Part shown: piece by piece, positions 28,237 to 29,753 of the stretch
How the letters are laid out: each line of letters begins with the position of its first letter
How positions within the stretch are numbered: position 1 is the first letter of the stretch
The notes under the pieces: generated by a model
Databases searched by the model: none
What the model was told of the DNA's origin: nothing
Seen by the model: the letters and a program-made list of their open reading frames with translations, nothing else
Program-made: the position numbers and the translations under genes
Assembly (NCBI GenBank): GCA_944389505.1
Contig: CALXMP010000005.1
Span: forward strand, 62,001 to 126,000
DNA length: 64,000 nucleotides
From: an uncultured Spirochaetaceae bacterium
Lineage (GTDB): Bacteria; Spirochaetota; Spirochaetia; Sphaerochaetales; Sphaerochaetaceae
Direction of reading: 5' to 3'

Positions 28237-28269
28237 TTGACAAATGCCAACCAGGGGGGGGGGTAAATT
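28237..28269 (+). promoter_or_regulatory. Lipoprotein promoter with a G10 tract in the spacer
   Basis: TTGACA (28237-28242), then a 21-base spacer containing ten consecutive G (28254-28263), then TAAATT (28264-28269). A spacer of 17-18 would need 6-7 G. Homopolymeric G tracts between -35 and -10 are a known phase-variation device (for example in Neisseria), and poly-G tracts upstream of tpr genes act in Treponema. Here the same role is inferred from layout. Confidence 0.6.
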
Positions 28270-28306: not shown

Positions 28307-29480
28307 ATGAAAAAATCTATTTCTGCAATTCTCGTTGCAGCTCTGATTTTTTGCATTCACAGCTTGTGAGCAGCCTGCTATGGAGATCCCTACTGAGAAT
28401 GGTAAGGAAATTGCAAATATCTCTGTAACATCTGCGAATGTTTACGCAGGCACCGAAGAGACATCAGTTCCTGCAGTCGTAACAGTAACTTACAGAGATG
28501 GGTCAACAACACCAAATGTAGCTGTTGAGCTTACACTTGCTTCGGAGACTGTTGCTGGATCAAATTTTGGCACGGTGAGTTATTCTGGACTTTCTGGAAA
28601 CAATGCAAAATGGACAGTGGAGTATCAGGGCATTGCTGTATCGAATATTACTCTTGATGTTGCAGAGGAAGATCTTAAGGTAAGTTATACTGACCTGGCT
28701 TCTCTCTGCGCAATCACGGGCGATGTAACAATTACCTATGCTGATGGTCATATAGAAACAGTAAAAGATGCAACGCTTAGTTGGAATTCAACTGAGCAGA
28801 GTAAGATTACAGCGGTTCAGGCTTCCGTACCAGCTAAATATACTTCAGGAAAAACTGATCTTGTAGCTTCTGCTGATCTTGCAATAACAGGAGGTCCCAC
28901 TGCTCCTGCTATTACTGGTCTCGTTGTCGAGTATCAGTATCCAGATGCATTTGATGCAACAGGCGCAAAACATTTCTATGGTGAAAAATATACATACAAT
29001 GTGTATGCAGCTACAGGCTCAACAGGATCATATGTAAAGACTGGAGAACCTCTTGTTCTTAATAGGGATTATTATATCGAAGATGGAAAGACATTCTCTG
29101 GGGTATTTGGTGCTGGAGAGACTTTAACTCTTGTTTATGCAAAGAATCCTACAATAAAGCTTCCTGTTACGATTGCTGCTGGTGATGACTATATTAGTAA
29201 TGTTGCTGGCTCTGGAATAATCAAGGGAACTGCTACTATTTCAAAGAATACAAAGCTTAGTGCTGATGATATTCAGATAGTTGCAACATATGCAAAACCA
29301 GCAACCGGTACGGATCCGGTTTATGTTCCTTCGGCAAATCTTACAGTGCTTGATGCTAATCCTGATGCAGGTAAAACAGGTTCTGTAAGAGTTCTTGTTA
29401 AGTATGGTAAAGGCGAGTCACTGGCAACAACAGTAACACTTTCCGTTACAGTTCCTGCCGAACAGGGACAGCAGGGCTGA
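28307..29480 (+). CDS. Beta-rich surface lipoprotein, out of frame at a T6 tract in the signal peptide
   Basis: ATG 28307 follows AGGAGAGG, but the frame stops after 20 codons (TGA 28367). Deleting one T from the run at 28347-28352 gives a continuous protein: a lipoprotein signal ending LIFAFTAC-EQPA, joined to the long open frame (366 codons from ATG 28380). The mature part is built of repeated beta segments resembling bacterial Ig-like folds (VTVTYRDGST, VTITYADGHIET, IQIVATYAKPATG). It is more AT-rich than neighbouring genes. It may be a phase-variable gene caught in the off state, a recent pseudogene, or a sequencing slip. Function unknown. Confidence 0.7.
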
Positions 29481-29497: not shown

Positions 29498-29530
29498 AAC
29501 CTGTTTCAGTAATTATGACTGGAACAGGTT
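29498..29530 (+). terminator. Hairpin after the lipoprotein gene
   Basis: 13-bp stem with one G-T pair (29498-29510 with 29518-29530), 7-base loop; the following tail is only moderately T-rich (CCTGAATCTTTCT). Confidence 0.6.
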
Positions 29531-29555: not shown

Positions 29556-29753
29556 ATGGAAGAAAATAGAGAGTCCCTCCGGAAACATTGGATTCCAACA
29601 GAGAAGCGTAAGGAATGCCTTGAGCTCTTTGAGCAGGGATTTGGGTACAAGAAGACTGCATCAATTGCGGGGTTGAATACATATACTGTAAGAGACTATA
29701 AGCGTAAATATGCTGCAGGAGATACTTCTTGGGCTTATAGAGTGATTGAATGA
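29556..29753 (+). CDS. Small helix-turn-helix protein, transposase OrfA-like
   Basis: 65 aa with AGGAGGA before the ATG. It is essentially one HTH domain: RKECLELFEQGFGYKKTASIAGLNTYTVRDYKRKY. This resembles the N-terminal HTH of IS transposase OrfA proteins and small stand-alone HTH proteins of firmicutes and spirochaetes. No OrfB or terminal repeats are seen nearby. It sits between two hairpins directly after the lipoprotein gene, so it could regulate that gene or be an IS relic. Confidence 0.65.
   Translation: MEENRESLRKHWIPTEKRKECLELFEQGFGYKKTASIAGLNTYTVRDYKRKYAAGDTSWAYRVIE

Follow-up and report, generated by a model that had tools for sequence, protein, structure and literature searches.

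A recurrent poly-G promoter cassette of lipoprotein genes, most likely phase-variable, in an uncultured spirochaete genus

The promoter and the gene in the window

The 64-kb stretch of DNA analysed here (the window) contains one long homopolymer, a G10 tract that lies between the two boxes of a promoter-like sequence; apart from this tract, the window has no run of more than five Gs or Cs. The following features were found at the locus.

28237-28242 (+): -35 box TTGACA, an exact consensus as read from the sequence, kept in the genus family
28243-28253 (+): spacer segment AATGCCAACCA, 11 bases, between the -35 box and the G10 tract
28254-28263 (+): G10 tract, which completes the 21-nt spacer and abuts the -10 box
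28264-28269 (+): -10 box TAAATT; the family consensus is TAGNMT, in which T1, A2 and T6 are nearly invariant
28276 (+): predicted transcription start, an A at the 13th base past the tract, where A is enriched in the family
28307-28369 (+): signal-peptide frame, 20 residues followed by TGA (28367-28369), broken by being 2 nt shorter than in the orthologue at a T6 (28347-28352)
28380-29480 (+): mature lipoprotein, frame open for 366 aa from the ATG at 28380
29498-29530 (+): stem-loop past the stop codon (-17.6 kcal/mol, z -4.5)

The homopolymer is wholly inside the interval between the -35 and -10 boxes, which sets the spacer at 21 nt. An earlier note on this DNA had described TTGACA, a 21-nt spacer with ten Gs and TAAATT at 28237-28269, and each of these elements proved to be exact. 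The same note called the gene behind the promoter a lipoprotein gene, a description that does not fit the sequence as assembled. The ATG at 28307 has a good Shine-Dalgarno sequence upstream, and the frame that it opens encodes only a 20-residue peptide: the signal peptide with its lipobox is frameshifted relative to the mature part, and the first start in the offset mature frame is the ATG at 28380, already past the lipobox region. Judged from this arrangement, the window gene as assembled should make no lipoprotein, whatever the length of the tract. The mature part gave weak matches to Ig-like domains (Big_4/Rib), all below the cut-off, and no relatives of the window protein were found in viral contigs.

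A syntenic orthologue in genome G066 is 70% identical and neighbours the same dehydrogenase-like gene. Its signal peptide is intact and 2 nt longer, its -35 box reads TTGATA, and its tract is interrupted, with 19 nt between the boxes. The dN/dS ratio of the mature frame against this orthologue is 0.22, so the signal-peptide lesion looks either recent or an assembly error. Past the stop codon, the stem-loop at 29498-29530 is a possible terminator, with no strong U run. Directly downstream, positions 29556-29753 (+) encode a 65-aa helix-turn-helix protein with a weak match to HTH_23.

Recurrence of the promoter and its link to lipoproteins

A pattern search for runs of exactly n Gs across the assembly (2.12 Mb in 19 contigs, both strands) returned 70 runs of G6, 4 of G7, 1 of G8, 8 of G9, 6 of G10, 3 of G11 and 1 of G12. 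Run lengths in this genome are thus bimodal, with the 18 runs of 9-12 forming a separate class and G7-G8 almost absent. A first-order Markov model of base composition predicts about 12 runs of at least nine Gs, as compared with the 18 observed, and far more runs of G6-G8 than are present. Under this model the 18 long runs alone are not surprising, and the argument is built on where they lie and on which genes follow them. TTGACA precedes the tract by 7-12 nt in 12 of the 18 long runs, and in nearly all of these 12 a -10-like hexamer follows the tract directly. The other long runs, which have no exact TTGACA at this distance, are placed as follows.

L017, G000:C6:13736-13745 (minus): G10, within the part of a lipoprotein gene that encodes the signal peptide
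L026, G000:C18:11539-11549 (minus): G11, before a gene for a PapD-like chaperone
L011, G000:C1:308316-308326: G11, before a gene for a BrnA-like antitoxin
L012: 89 nt upstream of a lipoprotein gene, with no TTGACA
L015 and L022: no clear downstream gene

The tract of L017 lies just ahead of the hydrophobic signal segment, is in frame at G10 and might act as a switch at the level of translation. At L011, a disrupted or switched partner gene possibly lies upstream, and L026 suggests that a pilus-like system may be switched too.

The pattern TTGACA-N4-16-G8 was found in 24 of 36 genomes of the same genus, often in many copies, whereas the reversed pattern had no match in these 36; the association of the tracts with TTGACA thus goes far beyond chance. 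The genus set comprises 94 distinct promoters, collected by a search that set no requirement for a -10 box; nonetheless, the bases directly after the tract are T (87 of 94), A (89), G (66), any base, A or C, and T (91), which gives TAGNMT. At the 13th base after the tract, 63 of the 94 promoters have an A, mostly preceded by a pyrimidine, and after removal of similar sequences the count is 44 of 69 (p = 8e-7). These conserved positions are the predicted -10 box and +1 of the promoter. Across a class-wide sample of 395 genomes, the promoter-like pattern was detected in 79 genomes belonging to 23 of 133 genera, as against one match in all for the control.

Matches to TTGACA-G8+-TANNNT (L059-L173) are also seen in gut Clostridia, Bacilli, Saccharibacteria, Alphaproteobacteria, Streptobacillus and others, often ahead of genes for secreted proteins; a share of these matches will be due to chance. 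A scan of viral contigs with the pattern gave 25 matches. Several members of the genus share a conserved promoter consisting of TTGACA, 17-18 nt and TAGAAT (L270 at G000:C1:122202-122231, minus strand; L266, L274 and L277). It lies 12 nt upstream of the ATG of a 498-aa protein; with the predicted start on this ATG, the transcript is possibly leaderless.

The genus promoters are closely tied to one class of genes. A lipoprotein signal peptide starts at most 60 nt downstream of 84 of the 88 promoters for which there was sufficient downstream sequence, compared with 4.1% of random positions, lipoproteins being recognised in both cases by a simple lipobox pattern and not by SignalP. The median position of the ATG is 38 nt downstream; the window gene is among the four that have no lipoprotein signal peptide. 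In the pairs L016/L020 and L010/L021, the promoter, leader and signal peptide show 86-98% DNA identity, and the mature parts have no blastp match. The mature parts found behind such cassettes contain GLUG, Ig-like (Big_3) or right-handed beta-helix domains, or nothing recognisable. The earlier note had proposed a slippage-tuned promoter of a surface lipoprotein gene; this genus-wide family strongly supports the proposal, except that the promoter is not a lone one but one of about a dozen in the genome.

Tract length, spacing and alternative explanations

The note had also suggested that tract lengths be counted in related genomes. Among near-identical promoters, defined by no more than 5 mismatches over a flank of 64-66 nt, the number of Gs differs in 8 of 11 comparisons (G9/G10, G9/G11, G8/G9, G10/G8), all of which are between paralogues and species and not within one strain. 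Of 17 lipoprotein promoters with short (G5-6) or interrupted tracts, such as GGGGTGGGGG, 15 have a spacing of 18 or 19 nt. Long-tract promoters have this spacing in 57 of 86 cases and centre on the same values as the short-tract set, the difference in spread being not significant (p = 0.09). Because the short and interrupted members hold 18-19 nt and the long-tract ones centre there, 18-19 nt, and not 17, is probably the active spacing in the genus. The TTGACA/TANAAT promoters of the genome (13 against 8 in the control) were too few to set a normal spacing. With an active spacing of 18-19 nt, the window promoter is two or three Gs too long and, at 21 nt, is predicted to be weak or off. A loss of two or three Gs would bring it to the active spacing, in place of the three or four, leading to 17-18 nt, that the note had proposed.

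G9 is the commonest tract, accounting for 57 of the 94 genus promoters. No compensation between the number of Gs and the length of the rest of the spacer was seen in the genus set (rho -0.12), which was searched without a limit on their sum. An apparently strong compensation in other phyla was discarded, as the search pattern itself had confined the sum to 14-20.

We consider the window promoter to be a phase-variable promoter cassette in which a poly-G tract completes the spacer of a lipoprotein gene, and assign to this reading a probability of about 0.8. The promoter would be of the sigma-70 type, with the tract completing the spacer and directly abutting the -10 box. Replication slippage within a population would alter the number of Gs and with it the distance between the -35 and -10 boxes and their helical phase, and the spacing would then set transcription of the downstream lipoprotein, presumably located at the cell surface, separately for every cell lineage. 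Copies of the cassette, consisting of promoter, 5' UTR and signal peptide, stand at many places in the genome ahead of unrelated mature lipoproteins, so that independent slippage at each copy would generate combinatorial surface variation, presumably with an adaptive role. This reading is supported by the bimodal run lengths, the 12 long runs that follow TTGACA, the recurrence in genus and class as against the controls, the conserved -10 box and the A at +1, the lipoprotein linkage, the differing G numbers of near-identical promoters, the 18-19 nt of short and interrupted members and the 19 nt of the window gene's orthologue. In addition, tp0126 of T. pallidum works in this way by reporter assay (PMC7864442). 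The concentration of tracts at G9, the lack of compensation, a spread of spacing that is not significantly wider in long-tract promoters (p = 0.09) and the frameshift in the window gene all count against it.

The frameshift speaks for the view that the window copy is a dead relic, that is, a pseudogene with a drifting promoter within a switch family that is otherwise real. We regard this as a serious possibility, if below an even chance. The 21-nt spacing, which is beyond the modal 18-19 nt, would also fit a relic; on the other hand, the exact -35 box and a family-type -10 box have been retained, and a mature frame that stays open over 366 codons with a dN/dS of 0.22 points to a recent loss of function, if there was one, or to an assembly error. 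Such a fate of the window copy is compatible with the phase-variable explanation for the whole family. It is rather unlikely that the G-tract is a fixed cis-element, such as a regulator-binding site or a structural feature, whose length is of minor importance and whose genes are co-regulated but not phase-variable. A strongly modal G9 and the tie to one gene class would be expected of such an element, but the number of Gs differs among near-identical copies, the tract exactly fills the gap between the boxes, and members in which the G-run is broken keep the same spacing, a break that is hard to reconcile with a G-specific binding site. Finally, although the Markov model expects about 12 long runs in the genome, the near absence of runs of 7-8, the reversed-pattern control of zero in the genus and the lipoproteins after 84 of 88 tracts refute the notion that long G-runs merely happen to fall between promoter-like boxes, which has next to no probability.

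Significance and comparison with known systems

The poly-G promoter-spacer system of lipoprotein genes is real and recurrent, and it is most likely phase-variable. A broader view, to which we give about even odds, is that the surface of this uncultured spirochaete genus is controlled by about a dozen dispersed, interchangeable cassettes of poly-G promoter and signal peptide. Recombination would have carried the cassettes to unrelated lipoprotein genes, each would switch by itself, and a tract-interrupting substitution at the active 18-19 nt could lock it. If true, poly-G promoter switching, so far described for a handful of genes of the syphilis spirochaete, would be a major strategy of surface control in uncultured spirochaetes outside the pathogens. 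Dozens of natural promoter variants would be available, and the rule relating tract length to expression could be read from existing metagenomes and metatranscriptomes. The members with interrupted tracts suggest a route by which contingency loci become fixed.

The mechanism of a homopolymer in the promoter spacer is already known from tp0126, porA and the Mycoplasma Vlp genes; novelty appears to lie in the organisation and in the host group. In the open-licence literature, we came across no description, for this group, of poly-G lipoprotein genes that are dispersed, span a whole genus and share a promoter and signal-peptide cassette. In the Vlp lipoproteins of Mycoplasma hyorhinis, promoter and signal peptide are conserved and the mature parts diverge; a homopolymer lies in the spacer of the promoter, and switching is combinatorial. 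Their tract is poly-A, their genes are clustered, and they vary in size through repeats. The cassettes described here share with Vlp the conserved promoter and signal peptide followed by divergent mature parts, but have poly-G tracts and belong to dispersed genes of a spirochaete. The Vlp papers are cited in PMC11868660.

In Neisseria meningitidis, a poly-G spacer between the -35 and -10 boxes tunes transcription of porA, as described in PMC7864442; the poly-G spacer is common to both systems, but porA is a single porin gene of a proteobacterium. The tprE/G/J/L genes of T. pallidum also have poly-G tracts upstream of surface-protein genes, with G8 or fewer being permissive in E. coli reporters (PMC7864442). 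The tract of tprL, which in vivo has lengths of 7-11 and mostly 9, overlaps the -10 box, and transcription starts at the fourth base past it (PMC7864442), so spacing is not the mechanism there; in the present genus the predicted start is the 13th base past the tract. A further likeness in a spirochaete is tp0126, an OmpW homologue with a poly-G of variable length between the -35 and -10 boxes and the best transcription at 17 nt (PMC7864442). It differs in encoding an outer-membrane porin-like protein, in contrast to the dozen or so lipoprotein genes per genome found here, whose tracts abut the -10 box and whose active spacing is probably 18-19 nt.
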